9,064 nt of DNA from Gemmatimonadaceae bacterium. Lineage in GTDB: Bacteria; Gemmatimonadota; Gemmatimonadetes; Gemmatimonadales; Gemmatimonadaceae. The stretch lies in the NCBI GenBank assembly GCA_019689955.1, contig JADGGM010000078.1, positions 1 through 9,064 of the forward strand, given 5' to 3'. Each line of letters opens with the position of its first letter. The stretch's first letter is position 1. The translations under genes and the position numbers were made by a program. The notes beneath the pieces were generated by a model, which was not told the DNA's origin, ran no database searches, and was given only the letters and a program-made list of their open reading frames with translations. Positions 1 to 9,064 of this stretch are shown in pieces.

Positions 1-1
1 G

Positions 2-2605
2 CTCGTGGTGCAGCACACCTCCGGCGCGCCCGGCCGCCCGGCGCGCCTTCGGCTCCGCGGCCCGGCGAGCGTGAACGAGAGCAACGATCCGATCGTGATC
101 GTGGACGGCGTACGGGTGTACGCCGAGCAGTCGGGGGCTCGCGACAAGAACCTGGCCAGCTTCAGCACGCAGTACGCCGCGCCGTCGCCGCTGGACTACC
201 TCGACCCGCACAGCATCGAGACGATCGAGGTCTTGAAGGGACCGAGCGCGGCGACGATGTACGGATCCGACGCCGCCAACGGCGTCATCGTCATCACGAC
301 GAAGCGCGGCAAGAGCGGCCCCCCGCAGTGGACCGCGAGCCTCGAGCGCGGCACGACCGCGCTCCCCGGGAAGTGGCCGAACACCTACGTGCGGTGGGGG
401 CGGAACCCGCTGGACAACGAACAGGTCTTCTGCGGGCTCGTGGATGAGCTCACGACCGCCTGCCGGCCGGACAGTCTGGTCGCGTACCAGCTCCTGAACG
501 ACCCCTCGATGACGGTGCTCGGCCACGGCTGGCGGAGCGGCATCACGCTCGGTGTCTCGGGGGGGAGCGACGCGCTGACGTACGCCGTCAACGGCAACTA
601 CAGCGAGGAGATGGGGCTCATCCGGCTCCCCGCGTTCGAGGCCCAGCGCTACCGCACGAGCCACGGCGGCGAGCCGCCGGAGTGGATGCGGCGCCCGCAG
701 CGCCTGAAGCAATGGGGCGCCCAGAGCCGGATCGGGGCGCGGATCGGGCAGACGGCCAACGTCTCGCTCACCTCGATGCTCTCGCGCTCCGAGCAGCAGC
801 GCTCTTCGCTCGAGCAGCAGATCGGCACGCTCATGCGGAGCTACGTCGACCACGCCAGCGGCATCTACTACACGCCGTTCGTCGTCGGCACGCACGTCGA
901 GGGGCTGATGCCCAACGACATCATCCTGAACGACTACTTCCAGCGCGCCACCGATGTGGCGACGCAGTTCACCAACGGCGTGAACCTGAACTGGACCACG
1001 CGGCCATGGCTGCAGGTCAGCGCGGACGTCGGCCTGAACGTGGTCGAGCGCACCGACGGCACGCTCCTCCCCAACGGCGCGAAGAGTCCGACCGATTCCG
1101 GGCAGGTGTCGATGGGGCGCGGCGAATCGATCATGAAGACGGTGAACGTGCGCGCGACCGCGACCGCCCCGCTCCCGTGGGGGATCCGCCTCCAGCTCGC
1201 CTCGGGCGTCAACTACACCGACCGGTCCACGTCCGATTTCGCGATCCTGAAGTCGCACCTCGCCTACGGCGGCGAGAGCATCCAGAATGCGACGAAGATC
1301 GAGAGCACGACCGGGCTGACGCAGGACCAGGCGACGTTCGGGTGGTACATCGAGCCGTCGTTCAGCCGCAAGCGCCTCTGGCTCTCCACCGGGCTGCGCC
1401 TGGACGGCGGGAACGCGTTCGGGTCGAGCGCGCATCTCACGGCGCTCCCCAAGATCAGCCTCTCGTATCTCCTGTCGGACGAGCCGTTCTTCCCGGATGC
1501 GCTCAAGCCGGTGTTCAACACGCTCCGGCTGCGCGCGGCGTACGGGATGGCCGGCGTGCAGCCCGGGCCGACGGACCGGCTGCGGCTCTATGGGGTGAGC
1601 GCGGGCCAGTGGTACGACGGGCAGTTCGTCGACGCAGCGCACCTCTCCAACGTGGGGAACTCGGAGATCCGGCCGGAGCGCTCGCGCGAGCTCGAGGGGG
1701 GCTTCGACGCCGACATGTTCGATGATCGGATCTCGCTGGGGTTCACCGGCTATCGCAAGACGCGCATCGACGCGCTGGTGAGCTTCAAGCTGCCGCCGTC
1801 GGTGCTCGGCGATGGCGGGACCATCCTGCGGAACATCGGCGTCATTCGCAACCTGGGGTACGAGCTCACGCTCGGCGCGCAGCTCCTCCGCACCGATCCC
1901 GTGTCGTGGCGCGTGCAGGGGCAAGTGAGCCACAACACCAACACGGTCGTCACGCTCAACCAAGGGATCCCGTCGTACCGGACCCCGAGCGGTTCGGCCA
2001 CGGTCGGGGTGGTGCCGGGCTATCCGCTGTTCGGGCTCTGGGGCCCGCAGATCCTCGGCTACAGCGACCGGAACGGCGATGGCGTGATCGACCCCGCCTC
2101 GGAGCTCCTGGTCAGCGACACGCTGGTCTATCTCGGGTCGCAGAACCCGGACTATGAGGGCTCGGTGAGCACGACGCTCTCGCTCTTCCGGAGCGCGGTG
2201 ACGCTGAGCGCCACCTTCCTGTACGTGGGAGGGCTCACGCAGACCGGGCTCGGCACCACGTTCAGCGCGCTCGCGCTGGCCGCGAACGATCCCGCCGCGC
2301 CGCTCGATGCCAAGGCCGCCGCGGTCGCCCAGAACAGCGTGGCCGGATTTGTCGGGACGCAGACCGTGTCGACCTGGCGGCTCAACAGCCTGTCGGTGGC
2401 GTACAACGTCCCCACGCGCGTGGCGCAGCGCCTCGGGGCACAGGCGCTCTCGGTCGCCCTCCAGGGCACCAACCTCTGGCTCCATACCAACTACCGCGGG
2501 ATGGATCCCAACGTGAACGCCTTCGCGACGGGAAACAGCATCGCCGACACCGGCATCCTCCCGCAGCCGCGCACCTGGAGCATCCGCGTGCGCGCGAGCT
2601 ACTGA
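2..2605 (+). CDS. SusC/RagA-type TonB-dependent outer-membrane transporter, 5' truncated
   Basis: This is the outer-membrane barrel of a SusCD importer, taking up a substrate with TonB energy. The frame is open from base 2 (CTC codon) to a TGA, giving 867 residues. The signal peptide, carboxypeptidase-regulatory-like domain and TonB box expected at the N-terminus lie outside the window, since full-length members usually reach about 1,000 residues. The plug domain is visible: 'NDPIVIVDGVRV' around residues 28-39 and the classic run from IETIEVLKGPSAATMYG to ANGVIVITTKRG at residues 72-103. The remainder alternates in the way of a beta-barrel and ends 'WSIRVRASY', a terminal aromatic typical of BAM substrates. 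D689-x-N691-G-D693-G-V-I-D697 is the EF-hand-like calcium loop common in SusC proteins. Cys144 and Cys154 could form a loop disulfide. The apparent GTG at base 5 is not the real start. The substrate cannot be read from sequence; no glycoside hydrolase lies nearby. Confidence 0.95.
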   Translation, partial: LVVQHTSGAPGRPARLRLRGPASVNESNDPIVIVDGVRVYAEQSGARDKNLASFSTQYAAPSPLDYLDPHSIETIEVLKGPSAATMYGSDAANGVIVITTKRGKSGPPQWTASLERGTTALPGKWPNTYVRWGRNPLDNEQVFCGLVDELTTACRPDSLVAYQLLNDPSMTVLGHGWRSGITLGVSGGSDALTYAVNGNYSEEMGLIRLPAFEAQRYRTSHGGEPPEWMRRPQRLKQWGAQSRIGARIGQTANVSLTSMLSRSEQQRSSLEQQIGTLMRSYVDHASGIYYTPFVVGTHVEGLMPNDIILNDYFQRATDVATQFTNGVNLNWTTRPWLQVSADVGLNVVERTDGTLLPNGAKSPTDSGQVSMGRGESIMKTVNVRATATAPLPWGIRLQLASGVNYTDRSTSDFAILKSHLAYGGESIQNATKIESTTGLTQDQATFGWYIEPSFSRKRLWLSTGLRLDGGNAFGSSAHLTALPKISLSYLLSDEPFFPDALKPVFNTLRLRAAYGMAGVQPGPTDRLRLYGVSAGQWYDGQFVDAAHLSNVGNSEIRPERSRELEGGFDADMFDDRISLGFTGYRKTRIDALVSFKLPPSVLGDGGTILRNIGVIRNLGYELTLGAQLLRTDPVSWRVQGQVSHNTNTVVTLNQGIPSYRTPSGSATVGVVPGYPLFGLWGPQILGYSDRNGDGVIDPASELLVSDTLVYLGSQNPDYEGSVSTTLSLFRSAVTLSATFLYVGGLTQTGLGTTFSALALAANDPAAPLDAKAAAVAQNSVAGFVGTQTVSTWRLNSLSVAYNVPTRVAQRLGAQALSVALQGTNLWLHTNYRGMDPNVNAFATGNSIADTGILPQPRTWSIRVRASY

Positions 2606-2613
2606 CCGAACCC

Positions 2614-2617
2614 GAGG
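2614..2617 (+). promoter_or_regulatory. Ribosome binding site for the SusD-like gene
   Basis: GAGG lies 8 bases before the ATG at 2626, inside the 20-base spacer after the SusC stop. It supports 2626 over the later in-frame ATG at 2656, which has only weak purine sequence in front of it. Confidence 0.5.
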
Positions 2618-2625
2618 CAAGCACC

Positions 2626-4083
2626 ATGATCGTGACTGGTCGATACGAGCACGCGATGCGCCGGCTCCGCGCCGGCCTTGCGGCGGGGATCGTGCTGGGA
2701 GGGCTCGCCGCGTGCTCGCCCGAGAATCTGGTCGGGAACGCGGACCTGCCGTCGAACGTGACCGATCCCGCAGCGACCGAGACGCCGCGGGGCGCGCTGG
2801 CCGCGTACTACGGCGCACTGATCACCTTCCGCGATGCGTTCGGGCGCGAGTATGTCCGCACGACGGGGATCCTGAGCGACGAGCTGCAGGATGGGTACCT
2901 CGGCGGCGCGAGCTACGGTGGCGACGAGGCGCTCGATCGCCGCATGCTCCCGGCGGTGCGGTCGAGCGACAGCTACCAGAATTCGGACTGGCGCAGCTAT
3001 CGGAGCCTCCAGCGGGTGCGTGGGGAGGTGAGCCAGGCGCTGGGGCTGCTGCGCGACTATCCGCCCGACACGTCGTCCGCCGCGCTGCGCGGGCACCTGT
3101 ACGCGATCGAGGGCTACGCCGAGGTGATGCTGGCGGAGCTCTTCTGCTCCGGCATCCCGCTCAGCACCCTGGACTATCGCGGGGACTGGACGCTCCGACC
3201 CGGCTCGACGACCGAGGAGGTGCTCCGGAACGCGACCGCGCTCTTCGACACCGCGCTCGCGCTGGGGGCGGACAGCGCGCGCGTCGTGAACCTGGCGCGC
3301 GTGGGGCGCGGGCGCGCGCTGCTCGATCTGGGGGACTATGCCGGAGCGGCTGCGGCGGTGGCGGACGTCCCCGACGACTTCTCGTACGCGGAACAGTTCA
3401 ATCCCGCGAGCGGCATCAACGTCACCAACTTCGCCGTGCAGAGCCCCGGATCCATCGCGTGGAGCTTCACCGTCTCGGATCGCGAGGGGATCAACGGGAT
3501 CGACTATCGCACGAGCCTCGATCCGCGCACCGCGGTGCGGGCGCTCTCCGCGCACGACGCGAACATCTACGGCACGCCGATGTTCTGGCCGGCCAAGTAT
3601 CAGCCTGATGGCGGGAGCCCGATCGTCCTCGCGGATGGGATCGAGGCGCGGCTCATCCAGGCCGAAGCGGCACTGCACGGCGCGGGCGGCGACTGGCTGG
3701 CGATCCTCAATGCGCTCCGCACCAACGGCACGTTCACCACGAGCGCGCCCGACAGCACGGGGCACGTCGACACGACGTGGGCCGCGGGCACCGGGCACGT
3801 GGCGGGGTTGCGGCCGCTCACGGACCCGGGCGATCCGGACGCGCGGGTGGATCTCCTCTTTCGCGAGCGCGCGGCGTGGCTCTTTCTCACCGGCCACCGT
3901 CAAGGGGATCTGCGCCGGCTCGTCCGACAGTACGGGCGCGATCAGGTCACGGTGTACCCCACCGGCCAGTACGGGCCGGGGTCGGGGTCGGGGACCTACG
4001 GCAACGACGTGAACGCCCCCGTCCCGCCCGATGAAGAGAGCACGAACCCGCTGTACCACGGCTGCCTGAACCGGGATGCGTAA
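2626..4083 (+). CDS. SusD/RagB-family substrate-binding outer-membrane lipoprotein
   Basis: This is the lid and binding partner of the SusC barrel encoded just upstream (20-base gap). It is 485 residues from ATG 2626. The N-terminus carries a lipoprotein signal: a basic MRRLR stretch, a hydrophobic core and the lipobox LAAC, with lipidated Cys30. Family hallmarks are 'IEARLIQAEAAL' at residues 339-350, 'FRERAAWLFLTGHRQGDLRR' at about 412-431, and the C-terminal 'YGNDVNAPVPPDE' near 459-471, which matches the usual N-x-x-FPIP-x-x-E ending. The middle is helix-rich, as expected of the TPR-like SusD core. The start is ambiguous: 2626 has the better ribosome site, whereas 2656 gives a more standard signal peptide with a short n-region (475 residues). 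Both give the same mature protein. No CAZyme or other gene nearby fixes the ligand. RagB, which binds peptides, is as good a model as SusD, which binds starch. Confidence 0.93.
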   Translation: MIVTGRYEHAMRRLRAGLAAGIVLGGLAACSPENLVGNADLPSNVTDPAATETPRGALAAYYGALITFRDAFGREYVRTTGILSDELQDGYLGGASYGGDEALDRRMLPAVRSSDSYQNSDWRSYRSLQRVRGEVSQALGLLRDYPPDTSSAALRGHLYAIEGYAEVMLAELFCSGIPLSTLDYRGDWTLRPGSTTEEVLRNATALFDTALALGADSARVVNLARVGRGRALLDLGDYAGAAAAVADVPDDFSYAEQFNPASGINVTNFAVQSPGSIAWSFTVSDREGINGIDYRTSLDPRTAVRALSAHDANIYGTPMFWPAKYQPDGGSPIVLADGIEARLIQAEAALHGAGGDWLAILNALRTNGTFTTSAPDSTGHVDTTWAAGTGHVAGLRPLTDPGDPDARVDLLFRERAAWLFLTGHRQGDLRRLVRQYGRDQVTVYPTGQYGPGSGSGTYGNDVNAPVPPDEESTNPLYHGCLNRDA

Positions 4084-4105
4084 CATGCATCCGAACCATC
4101 CATTC

Positions 4106-4110
4106 GAGGG
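4106..4110 (+). promoter_or_regulatory. Ribosome binding site deciding the start of the third gene
   Basis: GAGGG lies 7 bases before ATG 4118. The earlier in-frame ATGs at 4076 (overlapping the SusD stop) and 4085 have no comparable purine stretch, so this site favours 4118. Confidence 0.6.
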
Positions 4111-4117
4111 CGCTTCC

Positions 4118-5161
4118 ATGATCGCTGCTCCCGCCTCGACCACAGCTCGCCACGGCGTGCGGCTCGCCGTGCTCCTGGCCCTGGCCGTCCTCGGGTGTGG
4201 GGGGAAGGAGCCGGCGCCGACCGCGCCGATCTCGGTAAGCGATGTCTCTCATCTCTACTGGGCGCTCACGATCGACCATCGCGGGGTCACGCTGTCCACG
4301 GCGGCGCCGTACGACACCATCACGCTCGTGGCCACCCTCTGCGACGCGACCGGCGCGCCGCTGGCCGCGCAGGCCCCCGTCACCTTCCGCACCGACAACA
4401 GCAAGATCGCGTTGACCCCTGACGGACACGTGCGCGCGCTGGGCGTCGTGACCGCGGCGCGCGTGATCGCCGAGGCCGCGATCGGGAACATCCGCCACGC
4501 GGACACGGCGTTGATCACGGTCACCGCAGACGACCCGCCCCCGGTGCTCGCGTACTTCGACGTCCAGGCCGACTCCACGGTGCCCATGCTGGCGACGCTC
4601 CCGTTCGTCGCGCGGGCGTTCACCGCGGACAGCGTGCCGATCCCGGCCACGGCGCTCAACGTGGCGTACACGGTGTCCGATCCTCTGGTCGCGTCGATCA
4701 CGAACGGCCGGCTCCTGGGGCACAAGATCGGCCACGTGTCGGTGATCGCGACGACCACGGTGTACGGGGTCACGATGGCGGACACGCTCGACATCGACGT
4801 GACGATGCGACTCGGCGCGGTCGTCAACGTCATCATGCGCGCGACGAAGGTCGGCGAAGCCGAGCACCCGGTGTTCTCGCCGAGCGAGGTCGTGATCGCG
4901 CCGGGCGGCTACGTGGTCTGGTTCGACAAGGTCGCGAAGACCGACATCGTGTTCGACGACCCCACCAACGTCGTGGCGCAGACCGCGCTCCCGGGCACCC
5001 CGACCGGCACCGGCAACGTCGCGCCGTTCGGCGGCGACACGTTCATCCTCAACAACTTCCAGTCGCGCGCGTTCACGCAGCCGGGTGTGTACGAGTACTA
5101 CAGCACGCTCATCCCGGGCGCGACGGGGCGCGTCGTCGTCTCCGCCGACATCCCGCAGTAG
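4118..5161 (+). CDS. Lipoprotein with Ig-like segments and a ligand-less cupredoxin-like domain
   Basis: The protein has 347 residues from ATG 4118. This start is chosen for its ribosome site and because it places a compact signal peptide (VRLAVLLALAVLGC) at the very N-terminus, with lipidated Cys27. Two beta-rich, Thr/Val-rich segments at about 47-143 and 145-230 resemble bacterial Ig-like (BIG) domains, as in 'PVTFRTDNSKIALTPDG' and 'YTVSDPLVASITNGRLLG'. Residues from about 235 to 347 follow a plastocyanin/amicyanin-like pattern: 'FSPSEVVIAPGGYVVW', then 'TDIVFDDP', then 'FTQPGVYEYYSTLIPGATG' and 'RVVV'. Where a copper protein would have His and then Cys-x-x-His-x-x-Met, this one has Asp276 (or Thr275), Ser329, Ile332 and Ala335, so type 1 copper binding is unlikely. 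It follows SusD at 34 bases and may act as a SusE/SusF-like accessory surface binder (inference). The Ig boundaries are approximate. Confidence 0.8.
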   Translation: MIAAPASTTARHGVRLAVLLALAVLGCGGKEPAPTAPISVSDVSHLYWALTIDHRGVTLSTAAPYDTITLVATLCDATGAPLAAQAPVTFRTDNSKIALTPDGHVRALGVVTAARVIAEAAIGNIRHADTALITVTADDPPPVLAYFDVQADSTVPMLATLPFVARAFTADSVPIPATALNVAYTVSDPLVASITNGRLLGHKIGHVSVIATTTVYGVTMADTLDIDVTMRLGAVVNVIMRATKVGEAEHPVFSPSEVVIAPGGYVVWFDKVAKTDIVFDDPTNVVAQTALPGTPTGTGNVAPFGGDTFILNNFQSRAFTQPGVYEYYSTLIPGATGRVVVSADIPQ

Positions 5162-5193
5162 CCTCGCTGCTCTCGACCGATCACCACGACCGC

Positions 5194-6792
5194 ATGCCGA
5201 TCTCACGTCGTGACTTCCTGAAGGCCAGCGCGCTCGTTGCCGCGATCCCCGCGGGCACGCACCCGCTCCTGGCGCGGTTCGGCCGCGCGGGCGATCCGGT
5301 GCCCGCGCTCGCGGACCCGGCGCTCGAGGAGCTCGCCGGCCGCGCGCTCGATGCCGCGCACTCCGCGGGCGCCACGTACGCCGACGTCCGCCTCACGCGG
5401 ACGATGAGCCGGATCGTGCGCCCCCGGGCCGTGGGCGACCAGGAGCAGCTCGCGGTGGGCGTGCGCGCGCTCGCCGACGGCTACTGGGGGTTCGCGAGCG
5501 GGCCGGTGTGGAGCGCGGACGAGATGGCGCGCCTGGGGGCCGAAGCGGTCCACGAAGCCCGAGTGAACGCGATCGGCGGCGCCGCCGTGACGGAGCTCGC
5601 TCCCGCGGCGGCGGTCCCCAAGGGGCACTGGGTGATGCCGGTCGAGATCGACCCGTTCGCGGTGTCGCCGCTCGAGATCGCAGACTACCTCCAGAGCCTC
5701 GCCATCTTCACCGCTCGCATCCCACACGCCGAGGTGTGGAGCAATCAGTGCGCGTTCACGATGCAGGAGAAGGTGTATGCATCGACCGTCGGGAGCTACT
5801 GCACCCAGCGCACGTACCTCTCCCAGGGGGAGCTCGTGCTCCAGGTCCGCAAGAACGACCGGGTCACGCGGCTGGCGGTCGATCTCCTGAGCCCGGCGGG
5901 GGTCGGGTGGGAGCTCTATCGCCATCAGCCGCTCCACGAGGCGATCCGGCGGACGGTGGCCGAGGCGGAGGAAGACCTGTCGCTCCCGGTCAAGCCGGTG
6001 GACGTGGGGCGCTACGACGCGGTGTTCAGCGCGCCCGACGTGGCCAACCTGCTGCACCAGACCCTCGCGCCGGCCACGCAGCTCGACCGCGCGCTTGGCG
6101 AGGAGGCCAACGCCGGCGGCACGAGCTACCTCAATCGCCCCTTCGAGATGCTCGGCCAGTACCAGGTCGGTGCGTCCGCGCTCACGGTGACCGGCAACCG
6201 GTCCGAGCGCGGCGGGTGCGCCACCGTCCAGTGGGACGATGACGGCGTCGCACCCGAGGAGTTCACGCTCGTGAAGGACGGCGTGCTGGTCGACTTCCAG
6301 ACCACGCGCGAGAGCGCGGCGTGGATGAAGGACTATTACGCGAAGATCGGGAAGCCCGTGCGCTCGCACGGGTGCGCGAGCGCGGAGTCGGCGATCGATG
6401 CCCCGCTGCAGACCACGCCCAACCTCGTGATGCACCCGGGGCGGGAGGCGTTGGACTTCGACGCGCTGGTGAGCGGGCTCGAGCAAGGGATCGCCGTCAA
6501 GGGAGCGCAGTTGAACATGGACTTCCAGCACCTCAACGGCCTCGGCGCCGGTGGCCGCGTCTACGAGGTCAAGCGCGGAAAGCGCGTGGCCATGATCGCC
6601 GGCGCGGGGTTCCTCTTTCGCGCGCCCGAGCTGTGGAAAGGGCTCCGCGCGGTCGGCGGGCGCGCGAGCGTGCGCCGCGTGGGCATGGCCTCGATGAAGG
6701 GCGAGCCGGGGCAGCAATCCGTGGCCAGCGTCACGGCACCGCCGACGGTGTTCGCGCAACTGACGGTGATCGACCCGCTGCGGAGAGCGTGA
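5194..6792 (+). CDS. Tat-exported TldD/PmbA-family protein without the HExxxH zinc motif
   Basis: This is the TldD-like (larger) member of a TldD/TldE-type pair, 532 residues long. It opens with a textbook twin-arginine signal, SRRDFLKAS, followed by a hydrophobic stretch to about residue 27, so it should be folded in the cytoplasm and exported. The body matches the family: 'AGATYADVRLTR' near the mature N-terminus, 'GVRALADGYWGFA', 'VDVGRYDAVFSAPDVANLL' leading into the former active-site helix, 'EEANAGGTSYLNRPFEMLG', 'SHGCASAES' (391-399) and 'AGAGFLFRAPELWKGL' (469-484). In active TldD the helix reads LLHExxGH; here it reads LLH288-Q-T-L-A-P293, losing the catalytic Glu and second His. The C-terminal Cys ligand of TldD also appears missing (ASMKGEPGQQ, from 499). 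Peptidase activity is therefore doubtful. No Shine-Dalgarno is visible in the 32 bases upstream. It overlaps the next gene by one base, which fits a heterodimer. Confidence 0.9.
   Translation: MPISRRDFLKASALVAAIPAGTHPLLARFGRAGDPVPALADPALEELAGRALDAAHSAGATYADVRLTRTMSRIVRPRAVGDQEQLAVGVRALADGYWGFASGPVWSADEMARLGAEAVHEARVNAIGGAAVTELAPAAAVPKGHWVMPVEIDPFAVSPLEIADYLQSLAIFTARIPHAEVWSNQCAFTMQEKVYASTVGSYCTQRTYLSQGELVLQVRKNDRVTRLAVDLLSPAGVGWELYRHQPLHEAIRRTVAEAEEDLSLPVKPVDVGRYDAVFSAPDVANLLHQTLAPATQLDRALGEEANAGGTSYLNRPFEMLGQYQVGASALTVTGNRSERGGCATVQWDDDGVAPEEFTLVKDGVLVDFQTTRESAAWMKDYYAKIGKPVRSHGCASAESAIDAPLQTTPNLVMHPGREALDFDALVSGLEQGIAVKGAQLNMDFQHLNGLGAGGRVYEVKRGKRVAMIAGAGFLFRAPELWKGLRAVGGRASVRRVGMASMKGEPGQQSVASVTAPPTVFAQLTVIDPLRRA
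6782..6785 (+). promoter_or_regulatory. Ribosome binding site and coupled stop-start for the PmbA/TldE-like gene
   Basis: GGAG lies within the last codons of the TldD-like gene, 6 bases before ATG 6792. The TGA of the upstream gene (6790-6792) shares its A with this ATG, a TGATG arrangement that suggests coupled translation and matched subunit dose. The frame is open far upstream of 6792, but that extension is only a shadow of the TldD-like gene. Confidence 0.65.
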
Positions 6793-8198
6793 TGCGACTC
6801 GATGGGGTGATGCGGCTGCTCGAAGCGCGCCAGCGCCTGCTCTCGCAGGCGGAATGCGAGGCGCTGGCCGCGCGCGCGCGCCAGGCGGCCGTCGGGGGCG
6901 GGAAGACCAGCGTCAACGTCGACAGTTGGTGGGCCGGAGCGCTCCGGTGGGGGCGGAACCGCGTCCGGTTGGCCAGCGATCGGCGCGACGTGAGCATCAG
7001 CGTGGTCCGCGCGATCCACGAGCACGCGGCCGGGCGCGCGTCGACGAACCAGATCGACGACGTCTCGCTCGTCAACCTGGTCCGCGCGGCCGAGCGCGAT
7101 GCGAGACTGTTCGGCGTGCGCGCGCTGCCGGAAGACCTCCCGCTGCACGCCCCCTGGTTCACCTTCCCGGCGACGCGCATCTGGAGCGACGCGACGTACG
7201 ACCTGACCGCCGAAGAGCGCGGCGCGGCCGCCCGCGCACTGCTGGAGCCCGCCAGAGCGGCCGGGATGCAGTCGGCAGGCTTTCTGGAAGTGCGGGCGCG
7301 AGAGTGGGGCGGCTTCCCCGACGGCGGGCAACCGTGCTATGCGCGCCAGACGCTCGCGCAGTGCTCGATGACCGTGCGCGATCCCGAAGAAACGGGCTCC
7401 GGGTGGGCCGGAGCGACGAGCTTCGATTGGCGCGCGATCGACACGCAGGCGCTGGCCAAGCGCGCGCTCGAGAAATGTCTCGCCTCGCGTCACCCCGTGG
7501 CGCTCGAGCCGGGGCGCTACACCGTCGTGCTCGAGCCGCAGGCCGTCTACGACCTCGTCGTGCGCATCACCTGGAGTCGCGAGGAGGCCGAGCATGGCAG
7601 GGGGCCCTTCGTGGCCGGCGCGGACGGCGCGCTCGGCATCGTCCGCACCAAGCTCGGGCTCAAGGTCGTCGATGAACGCATCACCATCAGCCACGATCCC
7701 GCCGATCCCGAGCTGGGCGTCATGCCCTTCACCCACGAGACCGGCGAGCCCGTGCGCCCGGTGACGTGGGTCGACCATGGCGTGCCCACCATGCTCTCCG
7801 ACCGGCGCGAGTACGCCCTCACGACCCGCACCGACAACCTGGGGACGCCGGACAGCCGCTCCTTCCGCATGAGCGGCGGGACGACGACGGTCGACGAGAT
7901 GGTGGCGAGCACGAAGCGCGGGCTCCTCGTCACGCGATTCTCCAACGTCAACGTGCTCGATCGGTCGACCCTGATGGCGACCGGGTTGACGCGCGACGGG
8001 GTCTGGCTGATCGAGAACGGGAAGATCACGAAGGCCGTGAAGAATTTTCGCTTCACCGAGTCGCCGCTCTTCGTGCTCAACCAGGTGGAGCAGCTCGGGC
8101 CGCCGGTCCCGGTGTTCGGCTTGCCGGGAGCGCCGGCGATCGTCCCGCCGCTCAAAGTGCGCGACTTCAGCTTCACGTCGCTGGCCGATGCCGTCTGA
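6792..8198 (+). CDS. PmbA/TldE-like partner of the TldD-like protein
   Basis: This is the second subunit of a TldD/TldE-type pair, 468 residues, close to the usual length of about 450. Family traits are 'YTVVLEPQAVYDLV' at residues 243-256, where TldD would carry HExxxH but TldE/PmbA members normally do not. Further traits are 'THETGEPVRPVTWVDHGV' in the C-terminal half and a standard C-terminal block with 'NFRFTESPLFVLNQVEQLG' at 418-436, ending 'KVRDFSFTSLADAV'. In E. coli the TldD/TldE heterodimer cleaves unfolded peptides such as the microcin B17 precursor, with zinc only in TldD. The present N-terminus (MRLDGVMRLLEARQRLLSQ) is an amphipathic helix with no signal peptide, although its partner has a Tat signal. 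ATG 6810 is an alternative start. Start 6792 is preferred for its ribosome site and stop-start overlap. It cannot supply the missing zinc site to its partner. Confidence 0.9.
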   Translation: MRLDGVMRLLEARQRLLSQAECEALAARARQAAVGGGKTSVNVDSWWAGALRWGRNRVRLASDRRDVSISVVRAIHEHAAGRASTNQIDDVSLVNLVRAAERDARLFGVRALPEDLPLHAPWFTFPATRIWSDATYDLTAEERGAAARALLEPARAAGMQSAGFLEVRAREWGGFPDGGQPCYARQTLAQCSMTVRDPEETGSGWAGATSFDWRAIDTQALAKRALEKCLASRHPVALEPGRYTVVLEPQAVYDLVVRITWSREEAEHGRGPFVAGADGALGIVRTKLGLKVVDERITISHDPADPELGVMPFTHETGEPVRPVTWVDHGVPTMLSDRREYALTTRTDNLGTPDSRSFRMSGGTTTVDEMVASTKRGLLVTRFSNVNVLDRSTLMATGLTRDGVWLIENGKITKAVKNFRFTESPLFVLNQVEQLGPPVPVFGLPGAPAIVPPLKVRDFSFTSLADAV

Positions 8199-8200
8199 GA

Positions 8201-8207
8201 GGGAGAG
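8201..8207 (+). promoter_or_regulatory. Ribosome binding site for the last gene
   Basis: GGGAGAG lies in the 16-base spacer after the PmbA/TldE-like stop. Its GGGAG core is 9 bases before ATG 8215 and 6 bases before the adjoining in-frame GTG 8212. Either start gives essentially the same protein. Confidence 0.5.
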
Positions 8208-8214
8208 TCGCGTG

Positions 8215-9064
8215 ATGCGAGCAATCCGATGCGTGGGGTGGGGGATGGTCCTGGCGTGCCTCGTCGCCGCGCGAGCGCGGGGGCAGGCGCGCTTCGAGGA
8301 GCCGTCGGCGCCGGTGGACGTGAGCCATTATCGCACGGTCGACGAGTGCCTCGCGCTCACCGAGCGCGTGGCCGACAGTCTGCGCAAGAGCGCCGCGGTC
8401 TGGCGCGACACGCTGCCGCTGGAGGCGATGGACTACGACGCCGGGCCGCCGGCGCTCGTGCGGGAGACCGCGCGGCTGTGCCGGCGCAACCTGCCCGACA
8501 CGACGACGTCGCTCGACGAGTTCCCGCTGCTCATGGCGCTGGATCGCCAGGCGGGGATGGAGGAGCAGGCCGACACGCTCGTGAAGCGCCGCCTCGATCT
8601 CGTCCCCGCGTCCGCGGCCGGGGAGCGGGCCGCGCTGGTGATCGACACGATCGTCCCGCTGTATCTCCGTGCCCCCGTGCGCTTCACCGCGGCCGAACGG
8701 CTGATCGATGCGCTCGGATCCTCGCCGGCCGTCTCGCGCGCGACGTGGATGGAGGCGCTGTGGAAGCTGGTGCTCGCGGCGCAGCGGATGGGCGACACGG
8801 CGCGCATGATGCACTACGCCCGGCGCGTCGTGGCGGTCGGGAACACGCTGACCGAAGCGGACCGGCGGGAGAAGGATCTGCTGGTGACGCTGGAGGGCTA
8901 CCTGGCCCGCGCGATCCTCAACGATCGCGCCCGCCTGGACAGCCTCCGGCGCAGCACGGCGAGCTACGTCGCGCTCCTGCGCGCCGACTGGGCCGGCGCC
9001 TCCGGCGCGGGGCGCCGCGCCATGGCCGTACCCCGCGGCCGCCCACCGCCGCCCCGCCCCCGGG
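8215..9064 (+). CDS. Exported helical protein of unknown function, 3' truncated
   Basis: The frame is open from ATG 8215 to the window edge with no stop, giving 283 residues so far. It has a Sec-type signal: MRAIR, a hydrophobic stretch CVGWGMVLACLVAA, and a probable cut after 'RGQA' near residue 25. A lipoprotein reading at Cys15 is possible but the hydrophobic stretch before it is short. The mature part is almost entirely helix-forming, with Leu/Ala/Arg-rich segments such as 'LIDALGSSPAVSRATWMEAL' and 'WKLVLAAQRMGDTARMMHYA', resembling TPR-like repeats. Cys45 and Cys89 could pair as a disulfide. I do not recognise the family. Proteins of this style in Gemmatimonadota sometimes carry a C-terminal thioredoxin/TlpA-like domain, but none is visible before the cut. 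The final ~20 residues turn abruptly into Pro/Arg-rich sequence, so a frameshift near 8990-9020 is likely. It lies 16 bases after the PmbA/TldE-like gene, in the same apparent operon. Confidence 0.65.
   Translation, partial: MRAIRCVGWGMVLACLVAARARGQARFEEPSAPVDVSHYRTVDECLALTERVADSLRKSAAVWRDTLPLEAMDYDAGPPALVRETARLCRRNLPDTTTSLDEFPLLMALDRQAGMEEQADTLVKRRLDLVPASAAGERAALVIDTIVPLYLRAPVRFTAAERLIDALGSSPAVSRATWMEALWKLVLAAQRMGDTARMMHYARRVVAVGNTLTEADRREKDLLVTLEGYLARAILNDRARLDSLRRSTASYVALLRADWAGASGAGRRAMAVPRGRPPPPRPR

Follow-up and report, generated by a model that had tools for sequence, protein, structure and literature searches.

A clade of Tat-signal TldD-like proteins without the HExxxH zinc motif in SusC-type loci of Gemmatimonadota

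We analyzed a stretch of 9,064 nucleotides from a Gemmatimonadaceae bacterium (GCA_019689955.1, contig JADGGM010000078.1, positions 1 to 9,064, forward strand; hereafter the window), which encodes a TldD-like protein that has no HExxxH zinc motif. Judged by its sequence, this protein, here called TldD*, is part of a single clade with HExxxH in none of the members examined, and it is predicted to have neither a catalytic zinc nor metallopeptidase activity. Proteins without the motif are termed lost-type below, and those with H, E and H in the motif columns are termed motif-bearing. Our preferred interpretation, to which we assign a probability of roughly one half, is that TldD* and its adjoining partner TldE form a non-cutting shell that holds peptides within an import locus of the SusC type. 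The features of TldD*, with its twin-arginine translocation (Tat) signal, are as follows.

5194..6792, + strand: TldD*, Tat-signal TldD-like protein without HExxxH, 532 aa (PF19289, TAT_signal, fold models)
5194..5268, + strand: Tat signal region with S-R-R-D-F-L, residues 1-25, end approximate (TAT_signal, best stretch residues 3-17)
6055..6072, + strand: H288-Q-T-L-A-P293 at the HExxxH position (translation and alignment)
6691..6693, + strand: Ser500 at the position of the Asp/Cys third metal ligand, Cys454 in Escherichia coli (alignment; role from excerpts of PMC5810440)
6697..6699, + strand: Lys502, the equivalent of E. coli Lys456, clamp tether (alignment; role from excerpts of PMC5810440)

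Three protein searches, all made with lost-type queries so that lost-type rows are enriched by design, contributed the best 120 of 1029, 5673 and 844 matches, and 13 database proteins shorter than 480 aa were excluded before alignment. The alignment has 446 rows: 326 database proteins, 12 further TldD-type proteins from the genome to which the window belongs, 80 loci from a contig scan and 28 proteins from a search of the phylum. The motif columns hold H, E and H in 110 rows and read otherwise in 336, none of which has HE...H anywhere in its sequence; some genes are present twice, and at 98% identity the 336 lost-type rows become 327. HExxxH is likewise found, in the motif column or elsewhere, in none of the 120 rows made up of the window protein and 119 homologues that are 57-67% identical. 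The same loss in 336 rows from many sources rules out a sequencing error or frameshift as its cause.

An earlier reading of the window from its letters alone (the sequence-only reading) had already reported that HExxxH is replaced by H-Q-T-L-A-P at residues 288-293, and this is correct, although the bases concerned are 6055-6072 (the 6049-6075 given at the time are residues 286-294). It had also held that a C-terminal Cys ligand is gone. Residues 499-508 do read ASMKGEPGQQ, with no Cys, but a Cys is not what most relatives have. When the position of E. coli Cys454 is located through the Lys two residues on (Lys456 in E. coli, Lys502 in the window), its column contains Asp in 94 of 110 motif-bearing relatives, Cys in 13 and a gap in 3, so the missing third ligand is better called Asp/Cys than Cys. 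Only 6 of the 327 non-redundant lost-type rows have D or C there. The single zinc contact thought to remain, H288, is indeed present, but it looks incidental, because among the 336 lost-type rows its column is mostly D (181) or A (64), with H in only 18. Over the four ligand and catalytic positions, none is kept in 254 of the 327 rows, one in 63 and two in 10, and both His residues are kept in none.

The sequence-only reading suspected a whole clade of such Tat-exported proteins in Gemmatimonadota and proposed a tree of motif loss. With the motif columns removed, a FastTree phylogeny of all rows has one change of state (support 0.991), and the sister of the lost-type clade, with the root chosen by hand, is a group of 63 motif-bearing rows; among 40 of these, such records as are named are Gemmatimonadota, except for L067 ('bacterium'). 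The same split is obtained with IQ-TREE for 57 chosen rows, 31 lost-type and 26 motif-bearing (SH-aLRT 100). Where homologues carry organism names, as a minority of rows do, these are Gemmatimonadaceae, Gemmatimonadales, Gemmatimonadetes and Longimicrobiales. A Tat-like RRx[FLMVI] motif occurs near the start of 262 of the 320 lost-type database rows, and the TAT_signal match of TldD* itself scores 23.0 bits, just over the cut-off of 22.7. The suspicion was thus well founded.

The clade is rare in the genomes searched, because matches were obtained in 28 of 395 genomes of a phylum sample (E 1e-130, at most three candidates scored per genome) and in 3 of 179 genomes of a family sample (1e-142). 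Of the 34 phylum match rows, the 30 with loci comprise 7 that are lost-type and 23 that are motif-bearing, the former coming from five genomes (the window's own, G000, and G313, G113, G006 and G328). A first scan of genome contigs found no relative, and a second gave at least 80 loci among the matches listed, all of them motif-bearing, which says little about the absence of lost-type genes.

Structure models indicate that the fold of TldD* is kept, as the sequence-only reading had proposed in describing a protein without signs of decay. The PmbA/TldD C-terminal domain is present (PF19289, 64.2 bits, cut-off 22). A PDB sequence search with TldD* alone found no TldD, and one with a 38-row profile returned weak TldE-side rows and nothing else, so the fold assignment rests on the models. 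There are 70 invariant columns among 38 diverse rows, and the ratio of nonsynonymous to synonymous substitution rates (dN/dS) is 0.34, a value from one tandem pair that includes a nearly identical stretch; together these rule out an isolated pseudogene. In addition, 46 columns are 90% common to lost-type and motif-bearing TldD rows. Because of these shared columns and the adjoining TldE, the lost-type clade is best viewed as a second lineage of putatively inactive proteins, this time among the TldD rather than the TldE proteins. The known inactive partner is TldE/PmbA (1VL4, 1VPB, 3QTD, 6J6A), and lost-type loci have their own TldE alongside.

The genes of the window run in the order SusC (cut at its 5' end), SusD-position gene, immunoglobulin-like (Ig)/cupredoxin gene, TldD*, TldE and the start of a thioredoxin-like (Trx-like) gene.

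2..2605, + strand: SusC/RagA-type TonB-dependent receptor, 5' end cut by the contig (TIGR04057, TIGR04056)
2626..4083, + strand: SusD-position protein, likely a lipoprotein (basis: position)
4076..5161, + strand: Ig-like/cupredoxin-like protein, likely a lipoprotein (by eye)
4808..5158, + strand: cupredoxin-like domain without the copper His and Cys (plastocyanin alignment)
6792..8198, + strand: TldE-like partner, 468 aa (PF19289, 92.7 bits; its ATG overlaps the TldD* stop, TGATG)
8188..9063, + strand: start of a thioredoxin-like protein, cut by the contig end (tblastn to sister copies; fold name tentative)

Seventeen lost-type loci were read, 12 in G000, two in G313 and one each in G113, G006 and G328. 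Neighboring genes were sought by tblastn with queries from the window's genome, and divergent SusC or M16 genes may therefore be missed. Of the 16 loci with upstream DNA, 14 contain the SusD-position gene and 13 the Ig/cupredoxin gene. Neither was found upstream in the second unit of a tandem arrangement (C505a) or in G006, and in G328 the Ig/cupredoxin gene alone is missing. TldE follows TldD* in all 14 lost-type loci with downstream DNA, and the Trx-like gene comes next in 9 of 10. A gene for an M16 peptidase lies downstream in C508, C640 and both G313 loci, while seven more G000 contigs start within TldE and read TldE-Trx-M16. Both G313 loci have FecR, SusC, SusD-position, Ig/cupredoxin, TldD*, TldE, Trx-like and M16 genes in that order, with an extracytoplasmic function (ECF) sigma factor before FecR on the locus scanned with Pfam, and the lost-type gene order is conserved across several genera. 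As a control, the same queries were applied to 80 motif-bearing loci, where they found TldE in 74 loci, SusC in two, the SusD-position gene in a single one and no FecR, Ig/cupredoxin, Trx-like or M16 gene. Neither this tie to SusC and M16 nor the copper-site loss described below had been noted in the sequence-only reading.

These loci can be placed among known systems. E. coli TldD, part of the TldD/TldE heterodimeric metalloprotease (5NJ5), is catalytic, whereas TldD* has no HExxxH and no Cys or Asp third ligand, and it carries a Tat signal and sits in a SusC-type locus. Its nearest motif-bearing relatives, about 32-39% identical, are Gemmatimonadota Tat-signal TldD proteins with HE(S/A)xxH and Asp-GKGQP (for example, L046-L073). 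Like TldD*, they adjoin a TldE and share the ELDRA.G.EAN stretch, but they keep the zinc site and, in the 80 loci, have no M16 or Ig/cupredoxin gene nearby. The SusC/RagA-type receptor and, in sister loci, FecR and the ECF sigma factor resemble the RagAB/SusCD uptake systems. Among titles and abstract beginnings of the papers listed in searches of open-licence literature, no description of the lost-type clade or its locus and no SusCD locus with TldD/TldE was found. Similarly, TldD, M103 and PmbA do not appear in the excerpts used here of a review from 2024 on pseudoenzymes among the metallopeptidases (PMC11266112).

The partner proteins also differ from their relatives. In TldE, the central helix of lost-type loci has A263R and has lost R264 and R270 (18 versus 65 rows), and the columns that differ cleanly are A263R, W341Y and F405W; the pair looks as if TldD* and TldE had changed together. 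TldE as a new catalytic subunit was considered and rejected, as the 18 lost-locus rows contain no HE..H or HE...H and no obvious catalytic set. The window's SusC matches TIGR04057 at 51.6 bits (cut-off 46.2) and, as a fragment, TIGR04056 at 308.8 bits (cut-off 368.25). The cupredoxin part, compared in 13 copies (window 4808-5158, L029, L030, L037, L040-L045 and L156-L158), matches plastocyanin 1PCS with E 2.2e-8. Opposite the first copper His these copies have T (6), I (3), V (2), A (1) and L (1), directly followed by an invariant Asp (13 of 13), and opposite the copper Cys they have S (11), D (1) and T (1). The copper His and Cys are thus gone from all 13 copies, with one copy (L158) retaining a Met near the Met position. 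For the Trx-like protein (window and 15 sister copies), every one of the 15 copies that extend over the two Cys residues retains both. Their spacing, counted by eye, is 2 to 21 residues: G113 has CxxC, G006 and the C505 pair have CxxxC, and the other 11 have 7 to 21 residues in between. Its fold has no worthwhile Pfam match, and PDB rows are weak (E at least 0.37). The window ends before M16, but M16 copies scanned from sister loci exceed the cut-offs of PF00675 and PF05193, and 11 of the 12 copies and fragments have HxxEH; the remaining one is a fragment whose extracted frame does not include this region.

The window's genome (3.76 Mb, 751 contigs) has PF19289 matches at 28 places, which we read as 14 TldD-type and 14 TldE-type. 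HExxxH is missing from 12 of the 13 TldD-type genes with the helix region on the contig, the other reading HESIGH (contig C266). The fourteenth is a C-terminal fragment on C266 of the Asp-GKGQP form, and a further N-terminal TldD-type fragment lies on C598. On C266 (L001), a contig of 3.1 kb on which no import genes were found, the order is TldD (fragment)-TldE-TldD (HESIGH). On C505 (L030, 77-9162), TldD*-TldE-Trx units stand in tandem, and codons 301-420 of the TldD* pair are nearly identical while the remainder differs, as after gene conversion. The SusC model has 58 matches in this genome and the M16 model 26, so neither family is limited to lost-type loci.

The zinc motif is lost while the fold, the tether and the partner are kept, and the simplest explanation is a chamber that holds peptides. 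Given SusC and, in many cases, M16, such a chamber would receive imported peptides and hand them on. SusC and the product of the SusD-position gene next to it would carry an oligopeptide across the outer membrane. TldD* would be exported folded by way of its Tat motif, probably taking along TldE, for which no signal peptide was seen by eye. The dimer would then bind the peptide in its clamp cleft, where conservation indicates that the tether residues are mostly kept (Lys502 in 263 of 336 lost-type rows), and cutting would be left to the M16 protein with its HxxEH, whose gene closes many sister loci. Holding without cutting has a parallel in E. coli: the excerpts used here of Ghilarov et al. 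2017 (PMC5810440), from which the roles of His262, Glu263, His267, Cys454, Lys456, Glu270 and Asp272 are taken, describe crystals of dead TldD (E263A, H262A) with stray hexa- or pentapeptides in the cleft, bound by main-chain pairing. They also state that in Gemmatimonas Asp may stand for Cys as a metal ligand. More broadly, but only tentatively, we propose a new kind of import locus, of the SusC type, in which the accessory proteins have given up their metal centers. Here TldD/TldE without a catalytic subunit would be a periplasmic peptide-capture chamber, beside a copper-less cupredoxin-like lipoprotein and a Trx-like protein with separated Cys residues, feeding an M16 that keeps its metal motif; one founding loss would have been followed by multiplication to a dozen TldD* genes in one genome.

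Several observations weigh against this interpretation. No Pfam or NCBIfam model matches the SusD-position protein at 1e-3, and thus none confirms it as SusD. M16 was not found downstream in C253, G113 and C505 by tblastn, and G006 is rearranged, with M16 upstream and FecR and SusC downstream. The tether is also imperfect: Lys502 is replaced by Arg in 47 of 336 lost-type rows and by a gap in 10, TldD* has Gln296 where the tether Glu is expected, and one lost-type TldD (L160, 1802-3418 on contig C118 of G328) lacks the KGEP clamp stretch as well. The motif-bearing HESIGH TldD of G000 could serve the TldE proteins of lost-type loci. In addition, the same excerpts (PMC5810440) report that H262A TldD has wild-type Zn/Fe content, so that peptide-bound mutants are not metal-free, that His267Ala did not fold and that changes of Glu270 or Asp272 gave less soluble protein. 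The zinc site thus also aids folding in E. coli, and what these mutants show carries over only in part to a clade that has lost the site.

The main rivals to a peptide-holding chamber make the pair a scaffold for M16 and TldD* a Tat carrier for TldE. TldD* would then be mainly an export and assembly partner that takes TldE into the periplasm, where the two would serve as a scaffold or allosteric partner of M16 rather than hold free peptide. Signal-less partners can be co-exported through Tat, the Tat-like motif is widespread in the clade, no signal was seen in TldE, and TldE and M16 share the loci. There is also a precedent in the alpha subunit of the mitochondrial processing peptidase (MPP), which according to the review excerpts is inactive yet essential (PMC11266112). 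MPP alpha is likewise an inactive peptidase homolog that serves substrate binding beside an active peptidase, but it has the M16 fold itself, while the inactive pair here would be TldD/E. A pure carrier would have no need of the clamp tether residues that are kept, however, and M16 is missing from some loci, making this alternative unlikely in our view.

It is less probable still that TldD* remains catalytic, through other residues taken up for the purpose or through a metal site that has moved, as the sequence-only reading allowed when it offered a pseudopeptidase or a different active site. S391-H392-G393-C394, D443, Q445 and R476 are strongly conserved, H392 or C394 could be catalytic, and 181 of 336 lost-type rows have Asp at position 288. 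However, motif-bearing rows conserve S391, G393, C394, D443 and Q445 just as well, so that none of these is new, and the H392 column has His in 248 of 336 lost-type and 62 of 110 motif-bearing rows. In a comparison of these 336 and 110 rows, no column of the window protein had one residue conserved at 90% in the first group and another in the second, and no His, Cys, Asp or Glu cluster was newly invariant in the lost-type clade. This lack of a newly invariant or differently conserved catalytic-type column argues against new chemistry, and a pseudopeptidase-type subfamily is the half of the earlier proposal that appears to stand.

We regard as very improbable a mixed assembly in which TldD* and TldE borrow catalysis from the one motif-bearing TldD of G000 (C266). 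That protein is encoded in the same genome, and E. coli TldD and TldE form both homo- and heterodimers in the account excerpted here (PMC5810440), but each of the 14 lost-type loci with downstream DNA has its own TldE, which is altered in the central helix (A263R and others). Finally, a gene that is decaying or selectively neutral, as twelve copies in one genome and freely varying motif residues might suggest, is scarcely credible in the face of the invariant columns, the dN/dS value and the gene order conserved in several genera.

TldD/E is a hollow heterodimeric peptidase, and in the excerpted study peptides are already found trapped in the cleft of inactive E. coli mutants. The lost-type and HESIGH TldD proteins of a single genome are a ready pair with which to test chamber function without the zinc motif. 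If our interpretation is correct, hundreds of database proteins would carry a misleading label ('TldD protein' or 'metallopeptidase TldD-related protein'). Moreover, a clade that lacks the zinc motif in both subunits, yet is under selection and linked to import, would mean that this fold can be a peptide-binding chamber in its own right.
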